Shown: one piece after another, positions 3,965 to 55,566 of the stretch
Layout: the number at the start of each line of letters is the position of its first letter
Numbering within the stretch: position 1 is the first letter of the stretch
NCBI RefSeq assembly: GCF_008831285.2
Contig: NC_045147.1
Span: forward strand, 24,700,981 to 24,764,980
DNA from: Nymphaea colorata
Taxonomy: Eukaryota > Streptophyta > Magnoliopsida > Nymphaeales > Nymphaeaceae
Length of the DNA: 64,000 nt
Reading direction: 5' to 3'
Translations under genes and position numbers: made by a program
The notes under the pieces: generated by a model
Databases searched by the model: none
What the model was told of the DNA's origin: nothing
What the model saw: only the letters and a program-made list of their open reading frames with translations

Positions 3965-5856
3965 TCAGTAGCATAAGGCTGGGATGAACAAGGGCTTCCG
4001 GCTCATTCTGTCCATGACAATGATAAAGGCCATCATCATTTCGTTGTCAAAGTCTGGCCGAACGATCAAGCTGAAGACATCGCTCCCCAGCATAATGGCA
4101 GGGTTCACCTGTTTTCTGCGTATCTCAGCCGCCACTTCTCTTGTTGCCGCGAGCCTGATCTTACAAGACCTCTTGTTGTAGTCTCCTTCGACGTAGAAAG
4201 CCGGAACCGGGAAGTTTTCGCCGATAAAGACCACGGCTTGGCCCTTGTTCCGAACCGCGTACCGTTTCTTGATTGAGAACAGGTGCCTCGCCTGGATCCC
4301 CCTAGAGTCGGTCTCGCCTTTGAATCCATCCCATCGTTCGTGCATGCTCAAAATCTGGGGCAGGACAATTTGATGGGAGAGAGGCAACCAGACTTTAGAT
4401 AAGGAATTTCAAACTGAAGCCTTGAAACGTACGTACGCCCTGAACATCAGACTTTAGATTTGCTAATTGGGCTCCATTAATTGTTAGGCCAGATGACCCG
4501 AGGAGGCTTGTGCAGTGGGGCGGACATTTGACGAAGAGGCAACTCGATTATATTAAGTAATGCCCAAGCGACCACAAACCCTGCTCTCAGCCAGGCTCGG
4601 GTTTTAGGCTGTGCACCTTATATCCCCACCTACCCTCCCCCACTAGTCATTTTAGAAAAAAATAAAGTGTTCTCACATGGCAGTCTTTGCGTTATACTAA
4701 TGCGTTGCTTTTTATGTTCTCCAAATTCAACGGCTCCTATTTGATTCCATGGCCAGAGAAAACAGTTGGTTAAAGGGCGAAAGAAGAAGAATTTCTGACG
4801 AAAGAGTTCCTAACTCCCAAGTAACAGAATCCATTGAGTTGTTTAAAGGGCAAAAGAAGAAGGATTTCTCTCGAATGAGTTCCTAAGTAAAAGAATCCAT
4901 TCCCGCCACTGAAAAATTTGTTTCTCTTTTGCTGTATTGAGAAACCTCTTTGTGAAGTAGCGGTCCAAATCAGTTCTTGAGATCAAATTTATAGATTGAA
5001 AGTTGACATTTTTCCGTCTTTGAATGAGATCATAAGACGAGCATTCTAAGAAAAGGAACGGATTATAAGAGTCACTTCAAGGTAAGTATTTACCTATTTG
5101 GTAAGTACGTGACTTTCTCTATGCAAATATACAACAATAAGCTCGTCTTCAGGACGCAACAGCAGGGATGAATTGGTCAATTATAACTAAGCGAGAATGA
5201 ATCTGTTAATTGCCCCGACGGTGACGCGAAGGCAATTAAGCTTCATGAGCTGATCCCAAATTCCCTTGAATGTTGAACAGATAAGTGCCGTGAATGCTTA
5301 TCTTTTCACATACAAGAAATCACGAGCTCCAATCAACTGGGATCAAGACCTAAGCGCCTAACGATCGATTTAGCTTTCATGCATGTATTTGCGAAGACAA
5401 CGGTGAACGGATTTTGGAGCACATGCAGGAGTCTACTTCGTCGTGTTAATTTGATGTTCCAGTATCTGCAGTACGTAAAAATTTTATTTTCATCCGCATT
5501 TGGTTTAAAAAACATTTCCAGTAAAGCTTGGTGTTTGAGAAGATAAAAAAGAGTAGCTGTCGTCATGGGATCAGATAAGTACCTGGCGCCTGCGGCGTAG
5601 AGTGAACAAGGGCGTCCCCTTGCCGTCCATGAGCACGAGTGAGACATGGGCAGCCACTCTGGTAGTTGTCCACCCTGAACACCAGCCTGCCGCTGCTATC
5701 CAACACCGTGAAACCGTCCATGCAATCGAAAGACATGCTCGATTTCTTCCAGACGGTGAAAGAGGAGGGGCCAGAAATTCGTCTTGCGCTTGTTGCTGAC
5801 GGTGATGGAAGTAAAGGCGGGAGCTCGTTTTCAGCTCCTGGGAAGATGCGAGGCAT
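3965..5856 (-). pseudogene. LURP-one-related (LOR/DUF567) gene, two exons, frameshifted in exon 1
   Basis: Exon 1 (5856-5583) starts with ATG (MPRIFPGAEN) and exon 2 (4354-3965) ends with a stop; the intron runs 5582-4355 with GT and AG ends. Together they show the LOR layout: TVWKKSSMSF, DGFTVLDSSGRLVFRVDNY, then LVLMDGKGTPLFTLRRR, then ILSMHERWDGFKGE and a C-terminal beta-rich half. LOR proteins fold like the Tubby C-terminal domain; Arabidopsis LURP1 contributes to basal defence against oomycetes, but the biochemical role is unknown. The problem is in exon 1: residues up to DNYQ read in one frame and VAAHVSLVLMDG onward in the next, so the product breaks near 5670-5680. The remaining GT-AG signals there are too close together to hide an intron. 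It is either a recent pseudogene or an assembly error, since the rest is well kept. Confidence 0.75.
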
Positions 5857-6037
5857 GAATCCCTTGACTGACCGGTATATACAATATTCGACGCGGAATG
5901 CGCCGCACAGAAAAAGGGAGGCTCGAATATCGATCGGTAAATTCTTCGAGTACAGGTCTGATGGGAAAGCCTGAGGACGCAGGCAACATCCGGAGGGTTT
6001 CTTCTTGAAATGGCTGAGACCAAGGCTACAAGCTACA

Positions 6038-6047
6038 TTTATATATA
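6038..6047 (-). promoter_or_regulatory. TATA box of the LOR gene
   Basis: On the minus strand the sequence reads CTATATATAAATG, a strong plant TATA box, about 180 bp upstream of the LOR start codon at 5856. Transcription would start near 6010. Only about 35 bp separate it from the end of the TIR transposon at 6083, so anything further upstream of the core promoter is transposon DNA. Confidence 0.6.
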
Positions 6048-6218
6048 GCTAGCGAGAAGAGAAAGGAGAACCTACTAAATAAGGCCACGTTTGATGCACA
6101 GGGATTTCACTGTGCATCAGGGTAAATTTTCCAAATCTGTACGGCTTTTCCTGATACAATCAAACGCAGGTTTTTTTCCCCGGGTAAAAGGTTGGATCCA
6201 GGGGAATTTTCCCCTGGA

Positions 6219-6250
6219 AAAAAGTCGGACCCTGGAGGGTCCGACTTTTT
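6219..6250. repeat. Perfect 15 bp palindrome with a 2 base centre
   Basis: AAAAAGTCGGACCCT at 6219-6233 is followed by GG and then its exact reverse complement at 6236-6250. A second perfect palindrome (9 bp arms) lies at 6198-6217 and a third (9 bp arms, GATGCACAG) at 6093-6118. All three are in the left subterminal part of the TIR transposon. Confidence 0.9.
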
Positions 6251-6312
6251 GGCGGAGACAAATTTTTTGCCCGTTAGGGCTTCTCATCACTCGTTTCTTC
6301 GCTCTCGTTCCG

Positions 6313-6420
6313 GCCTCCAGCCATCGTCCGCTCGCCGTGCTCTCCACCACCGCCGCTGCTCTGCCTCCAGTCGTCGTCCGCTCGCCATGCTCTCCACCAC
6401 AGCCGCTGCTCTGCCTCCAG
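6313..6420 (+). repeat. Tandem repeat, 50 bp unit, about 2.2 copies
   Basis: Copies start at 6313, 6363 and 6413 with GCCTCCAG; the first two differ at a handful of bases. The segment is CT- and CCG-rich, resembling the 5' UTR of a plant gene, and ends near a possible splice donor (GAG|GTACGCC at about 6450). It lies inside the TIR transposon, about 0.7 kb before the GH17 fragment. Confidence 0.8.
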
Positions 6421-7131
6421 CCGTTGTGGTATTTCGAAGAAGTTGAGGTACGCCATTCCTGCGTTCTGTCTTTTTTTCTATTCATCGCCATATGTTTTTT
6501 TCCTTCCGCTGCTTCATGGGTGATCCTTGCCTTCTTACGTCCTCAATCTCAATGGCCTGAACAACCGTTTCTTTTTATCTTTTTGGTTACTATGTGCTAT
6601 TAAAGCTATCTTATGCATATTCTTTTATCAGCGCCTGTCAATCTTGTTTTAGTCCTTTATAACATAGTGGATATTGCTGTAAGTGTTCTTTTTTTTTCCC
6701 AGCTCAAAAATGCAAGGTATACATGTCTTCAGTTTTGACAGCTACCATGTTCGTCTGCTTCCTCTTTACTGGACGCCGTACCAACCTTCCCTTCTTGTCC
6801 GTCTGAAGTTTTCATGCTTCTCCAAGATCTCCGTTTTAGTGGCATTTTCTTCCAAAGCTAGTATTTGCTAGATCTTTGTTCTTTGGCATGATTGAAACAT
6901 GTTCTGGATCTTGGTGAAAGAACTTTAGAAGAACTTCGTTGAAGTTTAGTATTTTTGGGTATCTTATTATACCCAAATCATTTTCTGTTTTCTGAAAGTT
7001 TCTGTCTTCTGCAACATCCTGTTCTTAATCCCGTTTATGTATTCCTGGAGTTTTCTGTCCTTTCCAAAAACTTGATTTTACTTACATTTTATTTCAGAAC
7101 TTGTTGTTTGAAGATCAGGCTTTGGACTAAA

Positions 7132-7254
7132 ATGGGATTGCCTTACCTGATTCTGGGCTTAGTCTTTGGTTCCATGCCATTGGTTTTTGTGAGAGGGATT
7201 GGTGCTAATTGGGGAACATCTACTGTTTTTGAACCAATCAAAGTAAAACTGTAA
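7132..7254 (+). pseudogene. GH17 glucan endo-1,3-beta-glucosidase fragment (signal peptide and mature N-terminus)
   Basis: A 40-codon ORF starts with ATG and encodes a hydrophobic leader (MGLPYLILGLVFGSM) followed by VRGIGANWGTS. Plant GH17 beta-1,3-glucanases begin their mature domain with G(I/L)G(A/V)NWGT directly after the signal peptide. The usual continuation, a helix leading to IQKVKLFDAD, seems shortened to IKVKL and is then stopped by TAA. So the piece matches the first coding exon of a GH17 gene with an internal deletion. It sits in the TIR transposon and is best explained as a captured host gene fragment. The call rests on the NWGT motif and the leader, so it is moderate. Confidence 0.5.
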
Positions 7255-7617
7255 AAGAGTTATGTAAATAGCTTGCTTCAAGCTATTTCCCTTGTGAGTT
7301 CTTTGTACTTGGCATTGTAAAACAAGGAACATTGTTTTTGCCCCAATTGGAAGTGTTCATCATTTTGATACTGATTGTGATTGTATGTGCCTCTATAGCT
7401 CATTCAGTTATGTTTATTTTCTTGTTCATGTGTTAATTCAATCACGCTTAGGCAAATGTAGCAAGCATGCACCTTTGTGTATAAGTGAGTATATGCAACT
7501 AGGTCAGTAGGTGTCAATTTGTATTTGTGGGTATGAATGAAACTCTGAGGTGAATTGTCATGTGCTTGAATTCCTAAAATTGTTAATTGCAAAAGAGAGC
7601 ATATCTGCCTCTGTTTA

Positions 7618-7789
7618 GGGTTGCCTTTGACTGCGTCATCTTAATAAGGTTTTGAATCTAGTTTACATTTTCGATACTGCTAATTCTACAAAGTTATGGG
7701 CTCAATTATTCAAGGATTTCTGTGGGTTGCAGTTTACCATTGGCCTCTCCTTTTTGTTGTTCAACATTGTGAGCTTTTTATCCATCTTT

Positions 7790-7827
<38 letters not shown>

Positions 7828-7863
7828 GAAACCTTATTAAGATCACACAGTCAAAGGCAATCC
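7618..7863. mobile_element. Nested foldback MITE-like element, about 246 bp
   Basis: About 37 bp at 7618-7655 (starting GGGTTGCCTTTGACTG) recurs as an imperfect reverse complement at 7826-7863, with most positions paired. The interior includes a CT microsatellite at 7795-7823. I see no clear target duplication. It lies within the larger TIR transposon, so it was either inserted later or is part of its foldback structure. Confidence 0.5.
7795..7823 (+). repeat. (CT)n microsatellite
   Basis: A nearly pure run of CT dinucleotides inside the foldback element. Confidence 0.9.
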
Positions 7864-8773
7864 ATGAACTGAGCCTAAGTCCATTTGCTACTGAACAAAT
7901 TGATTCAACTCAAGTGTTGAAGTATGCATCATATTTGTTCTGACCATTTGGGAAGGAAAAGTTGGTACAGTTTTGTTATTCATGTTGGCCTCTTGAGATT
8001 TGTTTCTGTTCTTTTGTTTAATTCATCAGATGGAACTGTATGCACGTGGTTACTTGAGGTTGGAAGCACGAACAATGTCCAGCCCACAGAATCAACCGTC
8101 TACTTTCAAAGCTATGCATCCTATGTTTGTTGTACAGAATGGGTTATAAATGTGACAAGTTTGTCATCCTTTTATAGTTTCAGTTTCATTTTCCTTGTAG
8201 TTCAAGTGGATCAATTCTTGTTGCAGCAGGATGTAGCCTCAATAATGCAAATGTGGTTGTTTGAGATACATTAGGAGGCACTAGACTTGCCAAATAGGCC
8301 CACAGCATTGGCTAGGGTGCAGGACTCGTGTTAAGTTCTGGTAAGAAAAATGGGACTGACAGACAGAGAGAATGTCTTCTTGGCACTCATTGGGGCTGGA
8401 GGTAACGTACCAAGTAACTTGTAGATGATTTCAGTGGCTTTGAACGATGTAGCGTTTATGTTGTACATTACACAGGGTTTTATTGAATGGCTTTAAATAT
8501 TTTTTCCAGGCTGAATTGCATGATGTGTGTAGGTGGTGCACGGTTAGTTGCAGTTTTTTACCATGACAAAAAAACGGTCAAAAAATTTTTTCTTGAAAAA
8601 ATTTTCCTGCCTATCAAACTAGACATTTTTTCCCATTCAAAAAAGTTCCAGACCATCAAACATGGTCTGAAACAAGAAGAAGGGAATTTTACCCTTCTGA
8701 CATTTTTCCATGGAGATTTTCCCCTAGAAAAAGTTCCCCCTCTAAAAAATCGGTGCCATCAAACGTGGCCTAA

Positions 8774-14867: not shown

Positions 14868-39821
<24,954 letters not shown>

Positions 39822-48500: not shown

Positions 48501-50538
48501 TCCTGGTGGCAGCGAGGTGGGGTGAAAGTGAGCTGACATGGGCTCCAGAGGGTAGACAGGAAGGGGCTAAGACACAAGGAGAGTAGCCTAAATCAAGGCC
48601 AGCTTGGTACGGGTGCCAGGGGTGGAGACTGGTCTGAAGTCCCCAATGTAAGGGGGATGTGGCTTCATTGAGATCACGACACAAACAAAACTAACCAGTT
48701 TTTGGTTCTCCAATACCCAATTGACTGGAGTTGAGTAGTATAGCTTCGCATTTGTTATGACTTGGACCTTTTATGGCCGATATCGGTGCGCAGAAGTGAT
48801 GTGTATTATTCAAGGATCAAAGTGTTAGTAGAAATAGGGAACGAAATAACCAGAAGGGTTTTTATAATACCCTGCCTCTAGAGGGATCAGAACTTTTAAA
48901 TGACATAAATAATATAGATTTCTACTAAAGAGGATAGGTAAAGAAGTCCTTTCTTTGAATTCCCCCAATCAAAGATCCTTCAATCTGATGAGGATTGGAT
49001 TTATAAGTGAGCATCTCTTGTAAAATATGAGCAACACGTTCAGGGTTTCAAACTCATGGTGACACCTAAACACAAGGGTTGCGCTCAATGCGGGATCTTC
49101 TCCAAATCATTGGTATGGCTATCAAAATAGTGAACATTAGCATGTTGGTTGTAGATCCAAGTGGTAGTATCAGGGCCCTTAGCTATTGTCCTTGAGAAAT
49201 GAAATGAAACACCAAAAAAGAGTTGACTACCGAGCTCTCACTCGGTTATTATTCATCATCGAGAAGTCAGAAATGGGGATCAAACCCATGGAACTTAAGA
49301 AACGATGGAAGGGAATAAAAGAAAATGAAAATGAAAGAAAAGAAACCAGGTTCCAAATGAACGCTGTTGAAATAGGTTTGGCATTTGGCACTAGATCACA
49401 AAATCTTGGCGATCTTTTCTATTTAATGAATGGAAGAGCCCGAGATTTTACAAAACCTTTGTCACTTAATTTTCGACCCATATTTCAACCTGAACGTTTT
49501 TGGTATGCCATTGAGCAAAGATAAGTTGTAATTGTATAGCTGTATCTAAAACATATCTTGAGGACCACCCAAACAATAAAAGTATCATTTCAAAAATTTT
49601 GCCGATATGCCTTATTGCAAGATGGAACACCTATTGATATATTCAATCCGAGTACCTTCTCCAAACAGATAAGAGAAGAATGCTCAACAAACTCCTAGAA
49701 GAACGCGAAGATCTCTTTGCGATAACTCTCAAAAGCGGCAAAAGAGCTCGGGCAAGAAACGAACGACTCTCGAAGACTCACCAGCCTTGATTGGGTACAT
49801 AATAGGAGGCAAACTAGGATACCGACAAGCGTAGGGACAGAAATGATGATAGAGGGAGTGAAAATGGGCCGGTCAGAGCAGGCAAGATATCCTCATCGGA
49901 GACCAGGCGGTCATGGACGGAAAGCACTGTGGGAGACAGTGAGGTGGAATGGGTCAGTGTTTTTGGTCCTCTCAAGAGGGCCAAGAGAGGCGAGACCGCT
50001 ACTACCATTGGATAGAATCCCTAATGCGCCATTCCTAGCAAGATACTGGTGTGCAAGGAGTTGCACAGCTTCAGAGTCGGAGATAAAAGGTGGTGGACTA
50101 GAGGCATGGTAGCTATGATCCCAGAAAGAGATATCGGCAAACTTATGCTGCCAGCGGAAGGATTGCCAACGAATGGCGAGTTTCCTATTGGCATACGATT
50201 GCATGATAGCCCAAAAGCTGCCCAACGGCGGGAGGGAGAGCGAGGATAGCATTATTAGATCCAACGACCTAGGATTCAGATCAAGATTACCACCTTGGAA
50301 CATAATTTGGAAGTGTAATTATGTAGGTTTGGTCAAGAGGTTGCAAAGGACTACCTTTGTTTGAAACAGGACTCAAAGACTTGTGGCCATATTAACATTG
50401 TGGTTTTTCGCCGTTCAATTAAGCTGAATCAATCTAGTTTATTTTGTTCAAGAAGTTGGCATCCGTTCAATTTAAGATTTGGCGCTCCATAAAGATGTCG
50501 AATGGCATGATTTTCTGCATTCAAAAGCGTGGTGGTAG
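45534..50538. other. Five kb without a recognised gene
   Basis: The first 200 bp is the FolD promoter and 5' UTR. Beyond lie AT-rich DNA, a TA microsatellite at 46179-46204, a 19 bp tandem repeat near 46700-46738 (GACAAAAGCAACAAACAT), and two patches rich in GGGCCCGGCC-like and CTCGGCCCAA-like words (46,100-46,170 and 46,790-46,990) that suggest old repeats. ORFs of about 100-130 codons lie at 46204-46506 (-), 49186-49524 (+) and 49911-50303 (-). The second is Lys/Glu/Arg-rich and ends in FRPIFQPERFWYAIEQR. I recognise none of them and would not call them genes. Confidence 0.45.
50534..50538. repeat. Target-site duplication, left
   Basis: GGTAG directly before the left LTR; identical to 55562-55566 directly after the right LTR. 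Confidence 0.9.
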
Positions 50539-50988
50539 TGATAAAAGTTAATGCAAAATTAATGCAGCTGCCTTTATGAAGAAGGTGAACGGTTTAACTT
50601 TTGGGTTCTCCAAAAGTTCCATCGTTCCAAGACATGTGCCCTATTTTAAATTTCAGTTTTTTGTTTTTAATATGGTCATTATATTTTCAGTTTTCTGTTT
50701 TTAATATGTCCATAATGACCATAGTGGAGTTACCAAGAGTCAATGTCATTTATTTTTCAGTTTTTTCTTACATGTATATATATGGCCCTTTGGGTTGGCT
50801 AAAGGTGTGAAAGAAAAAGCATTTCAAGTGTGCTCCAAACTTTTAGTGTTGTGTGCTCTTATCACATGTCATGCCTTTGTGATCACTTGTAGAAACAAGT
50901 GCTCGATTAGTGTGTTGTTTTCTTGTGTTGTGTCATTCACAGGAGCATAAGAAGAGGAAGTGCAGACAGGTCATTCCTTTTGCTAACA
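50539..50988 (+). repeat. Left LTR of the copia element
   Basis: 450 bp, starting TGATAAAAGTTAATGC and ending TTTTGCTAACA. A TATATATATGGCC-like motif near 50776 may serve as the TATA box of the element. Confidence 0.95.
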
Positions 50989-50989
50989 G

Positions 50990-51003
50990 TGGTATCAGAG
51001 CCA
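50990..51003 (+). other. Primer-binding site of the copia element
   Basis: TGGTATCAGAGCCA, complementary to the 3' end of initiator methionine tRNA, one base after the left LTR. Confidence 0.93.
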
Positions 51004-51113
51004 GGTCGATTGTGTTGTCGTGATTGTTGGTAAAAGTGCAAAAGAGAGGCCTGCAAGGTAAAGTCTGCACATAACTTGTTCGACAAAATTTCTGTGAGAA
51101 ATTTTTGTTCATT

Positions 51114-54100
51114 ATGGCTAATGGCATGTCCACTTCAAATGTTTTTCAATCGCTCATACCGGTATTTAGTGGTGATAATTATAGTTTTTGGAGCATAAAA
51201 ATGAAGACCTTCTTTTTGTCACAAGATCTTTGGGATTTAGTTGAAAATGGTTATATAGAAAGTGCAGAGAGCTCAAAACAAGGAGAAAAGACAGTTGAAT
51301 CAAGAGAGCAACGGAAGAAGGATTCAAAAGCCTTGCTTGTTCTTCAACAAGCTGTAAGTGAGACTATCTTTCCTCGAATTGCTGGTGCTACTAGTTCAAA
51401 TGAAGCTTGGACTATTCTCAAGCAAGAATATCATGGTGATAAGAAGGTAATGACAGTGAAACTCCAAATCCTCCGTAAAGAGTTTGAGACATTGTTTATG
51501 AAAAACAATGAATCAGTCCAAGATTTTTTTTCAAGAGCTTTCATAATTATAAATGAGATGAAAACCTTTGGAGAGGTTGTTAGCAACCAGAAAATTGTAG
51601 AAAAAATATTGAGGAGCTTACCGCCTAAATTTGATCATGTGGTTACGGCTATAGAAGAGTCTAAGGATTTGACTGCATACTCTGCTAATGAATTATTGGG
51701 TTCTCTTTTAGCCCATGAACAAAGAATGAACAGGTCAATTGAGAAAAGTGTTGAACAAGCATTCCAAGCTCAAGTCAAGTTGGATGACTTTAGCAAAGAG
51801 AGAAAGGGAGCAACTGTACGAAAGAATGCATATCGCGGGCGAGGTAGAGGTAACTATCGTGGACGTGGACAAGGAAGATTTGAGGCAGTCCGAAATAAGT
51901 CAGAAGGAGGTGATACTAACAATCAAAAACATGCCCACAAAAACAAGTATTGTGTTTTTTGCAAAAGAAATGGTCATACTGAAGCGTATTGTTGGGATAA
52001 AGCAAAACAACAAGCTAATGTAGTGGAAGAGAAAGTAGAAGATGGTAACTTATTTTTTACTCATACAGAGTCAAATGAAAATATTGATCATGTATGGTTT
52101 TTAGATAGTGGATGCAGTAATCATATGACAGGAAAGAGAGACTTGTTTTGTGACATTGATGAATCAGTGAAGCAACAAGTTCGACTTGGAGACAACAAAA
52201 AGGTGCAAATTGATGGTAAAGGCACAATTGAGATATCAATTAACGGTGGTACTAAAAGGTTGGTACATGAAGTTTATTATATACCTGGATTAGCATATAA
52301 CTTACTAAGCGTTGGACAGTTAGCACAAAAAGGATATTTGATTTCATTTCATGATGATGTATGTGAAATCAAAAAGAAATGTTCTACCATGCCACCTATA
52401 ATAGTGCACATGACAAAGAACAAAATGTTTCCAATCGAGCTTTCACACTTTGATGCATATGCCTTAGTAGCAGACATGAATAAAGTGTCTAAGTTATGGT
52501 ACTTAAGATATGGACACTTGCACTACAATGGACTGAAGTTATTGGGGCAGAAAAAATTAGTTGTTGGTTTACCTCATCTTACCAATAATGAAGATATTTG
52601 TGAAGCATGTGTGTATGGAAAACAACACCGTCTTCCATTTCCAGTTGGGAAAGCATGGAGAGCAAAAACTCCTTTAGAATTAGTGCATGCTGACATTTGT
52701 GGACCAACAAGAACTCCATCTCTGAATAATAGTAGATATTTTTTACTATTCACTGACGATTTTTCTCGCATGAGTTGGGTGTTTTTTCTTGTTGAAAAAT
52801 CCGAAGCCTTTGACAAATTCAAGGAATTTAAAGTGTTTGCAGAAAAAGAATGTGGGCGACCTATAAAAAAATTTCGTACTGATAGAGGGGGAGAATTTTT
52901 GTCAAATGATTTTGACAATTTTTGCAAATTACATGGCATACATAGACAGTTGACAGTAAGAAAAACTCCTCAACAAAATGGAGTAGCTGAAAGAAAAAAC
53001 CGTACAGTGGTAGAGATGGCTCGTAGCATGTTGAATGAGAAGCATCTTCCAAATGAGTTTTGGGCTGAAGCAGTAGCTACAGCTGTGTATCTTCTCAACA
53101 TATCACCAACCAAAGCAGTCTGCAATATGACTCCATATGAAGCATGGTGGAATAAAAAACCTGATGTAAGTAATTTGAAAGTTTTTAGATGCATTGCCTA
53201 CTCTCTGCTTGATTCTAGTAGTCGAGACAAAATGGATAAAAAGAGTGAGAAATGTATTTTTGTGGGTTATAGTAATAACTCAAAAGGTTATAGACTATAC
53301 AATCCAGTAACAAAGTCTTTAATTATTCGGCGTGATATCATTTTTGATGAGAATGGATCATGGGAGTGGACAACAATAGAAGATCAACATATTCCATTTG
53401 TTGATTCAACTTCTCACTCAAATGCATCAACGTCAAGTGCTACTCATTCAAAAGAGACCAATTCAGATCATGAAGAAGATGTCGAAATAATTACAGATGA
53501 GTCTTCTCCACCAAGAAAGGTACGATCTCTAGATGATATATATGCTTCTTGTTCATTTGCTTTTATGGTAATTGAACCATCATGTTATGAGGAAGCATGT
53601 GGTAAAGAAGAATGGGAAAAAGCAATGCAAGAAGAGATCGATACAATTAAGAGAAATGATACATGGCAGCTAGTAGATTTACCACAAGGAAAGGAACCTA
53701 TAAGTGTGAAATGGGTTTACAAATTGAAATATAATGTTGATGGAGATGTGCAAAAATACAAGGCCAGACTAGTCGTCAGAGGGTATGTACAAAAATATGG
53801 CATTGATTATTTCGAAACTTTTTCTCCTGTTGCTCGTTTTGAGACTATTAGGCTAGTATTGGCACTTGCAGCTCACTTAAAATGGAAGGTATTTCAATTT
53901 GATGTCAAATCTGCTTTTTTGAATGGTGCTTTAGAAGAAGATGTATATGTACATCAACCACAGGGCTTTGTCATAAGTGGACATGAGAAGAAAGTGTATA
54001 AGTTGAAGAAGGCCCTTTATGGCCTCAAGCAAGCACCAAGAGCATGGTATGGGAGACTTGACACATATCTTCACAAAAATGGGTTTCGACGTTGTGAGAG

Positions 54101-55124
54101 TGAACCCACATTATACTTAAAAAATGAAGGCATTGATATGCTTGTGGTATGTGTTTATGTAGATGACATTATCTACATGGGATCAAGTGATGTGCTCATT
54201 CAAAAATTCAAGGACAGTATGATAAGTGAGTTTGAAATGACAGATTTGGGTTTATTGCATTTCTTTCTTGGTCTTCAAGTTGTCCAAACAAATAATGGTA
54301 TTTTTATCTCTCAAGAAAAATATGCATTAAGCCTACTTAAGAAGTATAAAATGTTAGATTGCAAGTCGTGCTCTACTCCTATGAATGCAGGTGAAAAGTT
54401 GACTTTGTCAGATGGGACTGCTAAAGCCAATGAAACATTGTTTAGAGGTCTAGTTGGTGGCTTGTTATATTTGACTCATACACGACCAGATATTTTATTT
54501 GCTGTCAGCTTGGTATCCAGATTCATGCACAATCCATCATTACACCATTTGGGGGCAGCAAAACGTGTTTTGCGTTACATCCGTGAAACTACTAAATATG
54601 GAATTTGGTATAAATCAGATGTTTGTTTTAACTTACTTGGTTACACTGATAGTGATTGGGCAGGAGCTATAGATGATCGAAGGAGCACAAGCGGTTATGT
54701 CTTTACATTTGGATCAGGTGCTATATCATGGTGTTCAAAGAAGCAAAGTACGACAGCATTATCATCTTCAGAAGCGGAGTATATTGCTGCATCTGCAGCT
54801 ACTTGTCAGGCAATTTGGATGCGTCGAGTTTCGGAAGATCTTGGTCAAAGTCAAACTGAAGGGACACCAATTCATTGTGACAACAAGGCAACTATAACAA
54901 TGACAAGAAATCCGATTTACCACGGACGGACAAAACATATTGAACTTCGTCATCATTTCATTCGTGAGATTGTTGGTAAAGGTCAAATTGTGTTGAAGTA
55001 TTGCTCAACCAATGAACAAGTTGCAGATGGATTTACAAAGGCACTTTCATACCCAAAATTTGTGAAGTTTCGGTCTCACCTTGGTGTTTCAGACTTTGCA
55101 TTAAGGGGGAGTGATGAAAGTTAA
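51114..55124 (+). CDS. Copia gag-pol polyprotein, intact, 1336 aa
   Basis: ATG at 51114 (MANGMSTSN) is the first in frame; upstream codons TTG TTC ATT are not needed. Gag (about residues 1-260, UBN2 type, VFSGDNYSFW near the start) is followed by an Arg/Gly-rich tract and a CCHC zinc knuckle at about 280 (CVFCKRNGHTEAYC). The aspartic protease has WFLDSGCSNH (about 328). The integrase has RYGHL, then D, D and E in VHADICGP (about 526), TDRGGEF (about 589) and PQQNGVAERKNR (about 620). The reverse transcriptase starts near 864 and holds YVDD at about 1014. RNase H has YTDSDWAG, SSSEAEYIA and HCDNKATI. No stop or frameshift occurs, so the product is plausibly functional. Its stop codon lies ten bases inside the right LTR. 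Confidence 0.96.
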   Translation: MANGMSTSNVFQSLIPVFSGDNYSFWSIKMKTFFLSQDLWDLVENGYIESAESSKQGEKTVESREQRKKDSKALLVLQQAVSETIFPRIAGATSSNEAWTILKQEYHGDKKVMTVKLQILRKEFETLFMKNNESVQDFFSRAFIIINEMKTFGEVVSNQKIVEKILRSLPPKFDHVVTAIEESKDLTAYSANELLGSLLAHEQRMNRSIEKSVEQAFQAQVKLDDFSKERKGATVRKNAYRGRGRGNYRGRGQGRFEAVRNKSEGGDTNNQKHAHKNKYCVFCKRNGHTEAYCWDKAKQQANVVEEKVEDGNLFFTHTESNENIDHVWFLDSGCSNHMTGKRDLFCDIDESVKQQVRLGDNKKVQIDGKGTIEISINGGTKRLVHEVYYIPGLAYNLLSVGQLAQKGYLISFHDDVCEIKKKCSTMPPIIVHMTKNKMFPIELSHFDAYALVADMNKVSKLWYLRYGHLHYNGLKLLGQKKLVVGLPHLTNNEDICEACVYGKQHRLPFPVGKAWRAKTPLELVHADICGPTRTPSLNNSRYFLLFTDDFSRMSWVFFLVEKSEAFDKFKEFKVFAEKECGRPIKKFRTDRGGEFLSNDFDNFCKLHGIHRQLTVRKTPQQNGVAERKNRTVVEMARSMLNEKHLPNEFWAEAVATAVYLLNISPTKAVCNMTPYEAWWNKKPDVSNLKVFRCIAYSLLDSSSRDKMDKKSEKCIFVGYSNNSKGYRLYNPVTKSLIIRRDIIFDENGSWEWTTIEDQHIPFVDSTSHSNASTSSATHSKETNSDHEEDVEIITDESSPPRKVRSLDDIYASCSFAFMVIEPSCYEEACGKEEWEKAMQEEIDTIKRNDTWQLVDLPQGKEPISVKWVYKLKYNVDGDVQKYKARLVVRGYVQKYGIDYFETFSPVARFETIRLVLALAAHLKWKVFQFDVKSAFLNGALEEDVYVHQPQGFVISGHEKKVYKLKKALYGLKQAPRAWYGRLDTYLHKNGFRRCESEPTLYLKNEGIDMLVVCVYVDDIIYMGSSDVLIQKFKDSMISEFEMTDLGLLHFFLGLQVVQTNNGIFISQEKYALSLLKKYKMLDCKSCSTPMNAGEKLTLSDGTAKANETLFRGLVGGLLYLTHTRPDILFAVSLVSRFMHNPSLHHLGAAKRVLRYIRETTKYGIWYKSDVCFNLLGYTDSDWAGAIDDRRSTSGYVFTFGSGAISWCSKKQSTTALSSSEAEYIAASAATCQAIWMRRVSEDLGQSQTEGTPIHCDNKATITMTRNPIYHGRTKHIELRHHFIREIVGKGQIVLKYCSTNEQVADGFTKALSYPKFVKFRSHLGVSDFALRGSDES
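55103..55111 (+). other. Polypurine tract of the copia element
   Basis: AAGGGGGAG immediately before the right LTR, the priming site for plus-strand DNA synthesis. It is also translated as part of the last codons of gag-pol. Confidence 0.9.
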
Positions 55125-55561
55125 TGCAAAATTAATGCAGCTGCCTTTATGAAGAAGGTGAACGGTTTAACTTTTGGGTTCTCCAAAAGTTCCATCGTTC
55201 CAAGACATGTGCCTTATTTTAAATTTCAGTTTTTTGTTTTTAATATGGTCATTATATTTTCAGTTTTCTGTTTTTAATATGTCCATAATGACCATAGTGG
55301 AGTTACCAAGAGTCAATGTCATTTATTTTTCAGTTTTTTCTTACATGTATATATATGGCCCTTTGAGTTGGCTAAAGGTGTGAAAGAAAAAGCATTTCAA
55401 GTGTGCTCCAAACTTTTAGTGTTGTGTGCTCTTATCACATGTCATGTCTTTGTGATCACTTGTAGAAACAAGTGCTCGATTAGTGTGTTGTTTTCTTGTG
55501 TTGTGTCATTCACAGGAGCATAAGAAGAGGAAGTGCAGACAGGTCATTCCTTTTGCTAACA
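55112..55561 (+). repeat. Right LTR of the copia element
   Basis: 450 bp, starting TGATGAAAGTTAATGC and ending TTTTGCTAACA; 446 of 450 positions equal the left LTR. Followed by the GGTAG target duplication. Confidence 0.95.
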
Positions 55562-55566
55562 GGTAG

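Follow-up and report, generated by a model that had tools for sequence, protein, structure and literature searches.

A probable multi-donor Pack-PIF element of Nymphaea colorata carrying the start of a GH17 glucanase gene

Pack-PIF elements carrying pieces of host genes are described from maize and rice, with terminal inverted repeats (TIRs) of 15 nt and mostly TTA/TAA target sites (PMC8903248). In the parts of that paper considered here, one cluster combines pieces from two genes (163 and 58 bp), and its Pack members average 535 bp. For Pack-CACTA elements, capture by fusion of elements is given as a route in the excerpts used (PMC8903248, PMC13317346). The PIF elements Pifvine-3 of grapevine, which according to the sections consulted were detected via transposase searches, contain sequence of exons as well as introns, within a region that reaches 3.5 kb (PMC2528002). 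A beta-1,3-glucanase is among the three host genes of which pieces are found in the maize retrotransposon Bs1, as summarised in an excerpt of PMC13317346.

As far as these partial sources allow a comparison, the element described here resembles the Pack-PIFs of maize and rice in its short TIRs, its TAA flanks and its host-gene pieces, whereas it differs from the cluster with the 535 bp average in its length of 2.7 kb, its three source loci and its intron-like sequence. With Pifvine-3 it shares the PIF type and the presence of exon and intron-like sequence, but the copy in the window shows no transposase, unlike the transposase-detected grapevine elements. Like Bs1, it contains pieces of three host loci with a glucanase among them, but it is a TIR DNA element and not a retrotransposon. 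A sequence-only reading of the window had suggested a Pack-like case of a rarely described kind. The possible Pack-like nature stands, whereas the hint of rarity is weakened, since capture by Pack-PIFs is in print in the parts seen of PMC8903248 and PMC2528002; Pack-PIF gene capture is already described in plants and the element is nothing new in kind. Among the reports listed in literature searches, none mentions a GH17 fragment inside a PIF element in its title or abstract opening. Ends, transposase relatives, sister copies and probable donors are found in one genome with readable junctions, so that the family offers a good case for examining how fragments of genes come to be collected by TIR elements.

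The window, a stretch of 64,000 nucleotides of the N. colorata genome (NC_045147.1), contains at 6083-8770 what is very probably (about 93%) a non-autonomous multi-donor Pack-PIF, belonging to a family with transposase-bearing members in the same genome. The features of the element and its surroundings are listed in Table 1.

Table 1. Features of the element and of the adjacent gene (positions in the window).
Feature	Position	Strand	Remarks
LURP-one-related gene	3968..5856	-	two pieces match PF04525 (2e-07 and 4.4e-18); putative extent
TATA-like box of LURP-one-related gene	6037..6047	-	putative; 35 bp from insertion
Target-site duplication TAA, left	6080..6082	.	
Left TIR, 14 bp	6083..6096	+	exact match to right end
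Left arm, ~200 bp	6083..6282	.	common to other family members; three palindromes within
Element's own leader	6283..6517	+	CT/CCG tandem repeat; in part common to L010/L011 and L057
Captured GH17 fragment	6518..7217	+	DNA match to C2 gene, ~90%
ORF	7132..7254	+	signal-peptide-like leader (by eye), GIGANWGTS, 10 residues, stop
Fragment of C7 SPIRAL1-like locus	7212..7248	+	94.6% over 37 bp
Further C7 fragment	7260..7644	+	92.9% over 340 columns, 96.3% over 54
Inverted repeat, 35 bp	7618..7863	.	91%, loop 176 bp
WD40-repeat gene blocks	8022..8568	+	five, collinear, 81-96%; gene on C10:15.56 Mb
Right arm, 199 bp	8572..8770	.	element 2490-2688; common to several family members
Right TIR, 14 bp	8757..8770	-	exact match to left end
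Target-site duplication TAA, right	8771..8773	.	

The exact 14-bp inverted ends with TAA on either side, noted in the sequence-only reading, were verified. They form the sole perfect 14-bp TIR pair inside identical TAA/TTA in the 64-kb window at a spacing of 60-6000 bp, and in 200 dinucleotide shuffles no such pair with a GG start and one with any start occurred. Members matching the left arm (element 1-200) include L018, L020 and L021. Hairpins are not restricted to the left arm, as had been considered; the right arm also has three. An inner pair matching at 15 of 16 positions (6260-6275 / 8573-8588) is located near the arm ends; in a test run after the pair had been seen, 0 of 300 Markov arms reached 15 matches and 3 of 300 reached 14. 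A single payload bounded by this pair (6276-8572) was rejected, as the element's own leader falls inside it. The gapped alignment of the two arms (score 107) was not significant against shuffles (mean 65.6, maximum 112.6, n = 200). Rfam gave 0 matches, the plasmid and viral contig collections yielded nothing of use, and no paper with a transposon in its title was found with the first 11 bases of the end motif.

A search of the host's 408-Mb genome (783 contigs) for the end motif detected 108 exact occurrences (58 forward, 50 reverse), versus 0 forward and 0 reverse for the reversed motif as a control. From the 100 occurrences with listed positions, 20 convergent pairs of 1.0-7.7 kb were fetched. 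Identical 3-bp flanks are present in 19 of the 20 (TAA/TTA in 17, TGA in two), and the remaining pair has unequal flanks (GTA/TTA). The 3-bp TTA/TAA duplication of PIF/Harbinger elements is thus found at the window copy (TAA/TAA) and at 17 of 20 family pairs. Large members of 6.3-7.7 kb are L009, L010 and L011. Pieces of L009 match DDE_Tnp_4 (E = 4.6e-15 and 2.9e-05, the second just under the Pfam cut-off), Plant_tran (8.2e-11) and Myb_DNA-bind_3 (2e-15), and a fourth piece has no Pfam match. The ORFs of L010 are closely similar to those of L009 by ORF comparison, the Pfam scan having been carried out on L009. The window copy thus has its ends in common with a relative whose ORFs specify a transposase of PIF type along with a Myb-like protein, and on this basis the family is assigned to PIF/Harbinger. 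No transposase family was matched in the window copy (three plus frames and three minus segments), where one unrelated weak match appeared (E = 0.24). Both genome checks proposed along with the sequence-only reading, for other elements with these ends and for a transposase-encoding relative, were thus positive, and the Harbinger-like assignment and the lack of a visible transposase within the element held in the frames and segments scanned.

As expected for a Pack-TYPE element, the chimera is present elsewhere, in five further full-length copies (L013, L014, L015, L017 and a C5 copy in L043). Identity to the window copy, counted on aligned columns without gaps, amounts to 98.5% for L013, 98.4% for L014, 97.5% for L015 and 99.93% for L017; the C5 copy is bordered by TAA at either side and shows a single end mismatch. 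L017 and the window copy differ in 2 of 2,688 aligned bases, apart from a gap of about 50 bp, so they separated recently; L017 is flanked by TGA and not by TAA/TTA. The reading from ATG to GIGANWGTS is kept in 5 of 5 translated copies (the C5 copy left out), one of them with an altered tail. Since the GH17-bearing element is present at several unrelated places of the host genome, it is not a local pseudogene.

The start of a GH17 glucanase gene within the element, previously recognised by its motif, was borne out by the alignment to host genes that had been recommended. The fragment aligns at about 90% with an intact gene on contig C2 over two main blocks, to which a short block of 24 bp is added. 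It appears to comprise the 3′ part of a leader intron, with the acceptor TTTCAG (7097), and the first coding exon up to NWGT. The C2 gene reads MGLPSLILGLVFGSMLVVSVRGIGANWGTQSSHS... and encodes GH17 (PF00332, E = 1.6e-10 and 6.1e-47) followed by X8 (1.4e-10), inside which the fetched stretch stops. Between gene and element, the coding start shows 7 base differences in 87 and 4 residue differences in 29, with no indication that the peptide is under selection. The GH17 frame of the element stops 10 residues after GTS and hence no glucanase is encoded. PF00332, the GH17 catalytic domain, was not matched in the three plus frames of the window copy, and the ORF alone had no Pfam and no PDB match. 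As an N-terminal stub, the fragment produces no enzyme.

The strict GH17 start motif occurs once in the window and in none of 100 Markov windows, and the loose motif twice, versus a Markov mean of 0.14. A 66-residue GH17 consensus matches 8 of 8 residues over GIGANWGT, which is not independent evidence because the consensus was written after the window had been read. A full-length GH17 probe reached 8 of 10 at the same site (window E = 1.7), below some chance matches. Proof of GH17 identity comes from the alignment with the host gene at the DNA level, which replaces the argument from the consensus. A literature search with NWGT strings found nothing.

The CT/CCG-rich stretch upstream had been described as a 5′UTR-like tandem repeat. 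The repeat could be confirmed (6313-6424, 50 bp x 2.2), whereas its reading as the 5′UTR of GH17 was rejected, as the stretch is part of the leader of the element family. Leader blocks match L010/L011 at about 90% and 82-84%. A putative splice donor, GAG|GTACGCC, is located in the leader at 6447/6448, and a further donor-like sequence, AAA|GTAAAA, at 7243.

Downstream of the GH17 fragment, pieces of two other host loci could be identified, so that host fragments with matching host loci are available for GH17 (C2), C7 and WD40 (C10), as in Pack-TYPE elements. The ORF of the C7 locus, which we take to start like SPIRAL1, matched 0 Pfam families. The GH17 and C7 matches have the 3 bp AAC in common at their junction. 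Part of the C7 piece is also present in L009 (95%), and 7665-7939 is common to the window copy and L009 (91%). The WD40 blocks are spaced more closely in the element than in the C10 gene, and the reading frames in the element are decayed. The WD40-like repeats of the C10 gene reach best E-values of 0.00026 and 3.5e-05, below Pfam's cut-off, and a piece of the gene has no PDB match. A reading of 8030-8142 and 8201-8340 as two exon-like pieces, joined in frames 1 and 2, was rejected, as the C10 gene gives frame 3 for the first. Weak matches to eIF6, to a coronavirus spike chain (E = 0.037) and several others, in one case with a best E of 0.0067, below cut-off, were judged to be chance. Among the relatives, L055 (378-4059) and L056 (1022-4307), both flanked by TTA or TAA, contain the piece of the WD40 gene wholly or in part but lack the GH17 piece, and the large relative L057 has the junction of leader and GH17 with only 39 bp of GH17.

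The matches to host loci, the relatives with the same ends and the sister copies support the gene capture that had been deduced from the window. Intron-like sequence inside the element points to capture at the DNA level. The pieces would have been collected stepwise from genomic DNA, and the composition of L055, L056 and L057 suggests that they were probably both gained and lost in steps. Since part of the C7 piece is also found in L009, some capture may have occurred in a larger element. Movement would take place in trans by the transposase of larger relatives, and the window copy may later have moved into the promoter-proximal region of the LURP-one-related gene. Most likely, the element would have acquired its pieces by template switching while being repaired; discontinuous pieces from three contigs and the shared 3-bp junction favour this route, which we consider moderately probable. 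Fusion of neighbouring elements enclosing the DNA between them, the route in the excerpts of PMC8903248 and PMC13317346, would yield otherwise the same element. A second TIR-like copy in the right arm (8654-8667) and the distance of about 149 kb between the C2 gene and the transposase-bearing L009 on the same contig are consistent with it, the latter of which could reflect local capture or chance. However, three donor loci on different contigs, discontinuous blocks and the short shared junction speak against fusion, which we regard as possible but rather unlikely.

With donor matches of only about 90%, the named loci may be paralogues of the true donors. For GH17, the identity to C2 is well below the 97.5-99.93% between the window copy and the compared sister copies, as expected if the true donor were lost or unassembled; however, C2 is, among the matches listed, the only non-element place broadly covering the GH17 stretch at E ≤ 0.001, and a lost donor is considered unlikely, at odds of about one in four. 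Shared sequence by itself carries no direction, so the start of the GH17 gene might in principle derive from the element. This is scarcely credible, because the C2 gene extends further, through a full-length-like GH17 to an X8 domain, and the 7.5 kb fetched from this locus contain no end motif with up to 2 mismatches. The same search gave none in any of the three source stretches fetched (L041, L042 and L054).

The multi-donor Pack-PIF is positioned upstream of the TATA-like box of the LURP-one-related gene. It is very unlikely, although conceivable, that it acts as a mobile secretion-signal cassette for splicing onto downstream exons. The leader exon with its splice donor would then be linked to GH17 sequence consisting of the end of the intron, the acceptor site and the exon for the signal peptide, and AAA|GTAAAA would be the donor for splicing to exons downstream. 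The ATG-to-NWGT reading kept in all translated copies is consistent with this, and if it were true, an element 35 bp from a promoter could supply host exons with a signal peptide.

Further repeats were observed in the window. A TRIM-like retroelement (16686-17158) consists of two repeats of about 200 bp (88.7% identical) with GCTCTGATACCA between them, presumably the complement of the initiator-Met primer site. It is surrounded by a perfect, TAA-flanked 13-bp inverted repeat, AATCATTGTCACA, 798 bp apart (16372-17169), and related pieces are located at 1230-1276, 22700-22854, 26695-26954, 29314-29544 and 35057-35269. A Copia-type LTR retrotransposon (50534-55562) has one long ORF (51105-55124), and its LTRs are 98.9% identical over 456 bp, indicating a young insertion. 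At 23586-23990, a 202-bp unit is present in two tandem copies (99%).
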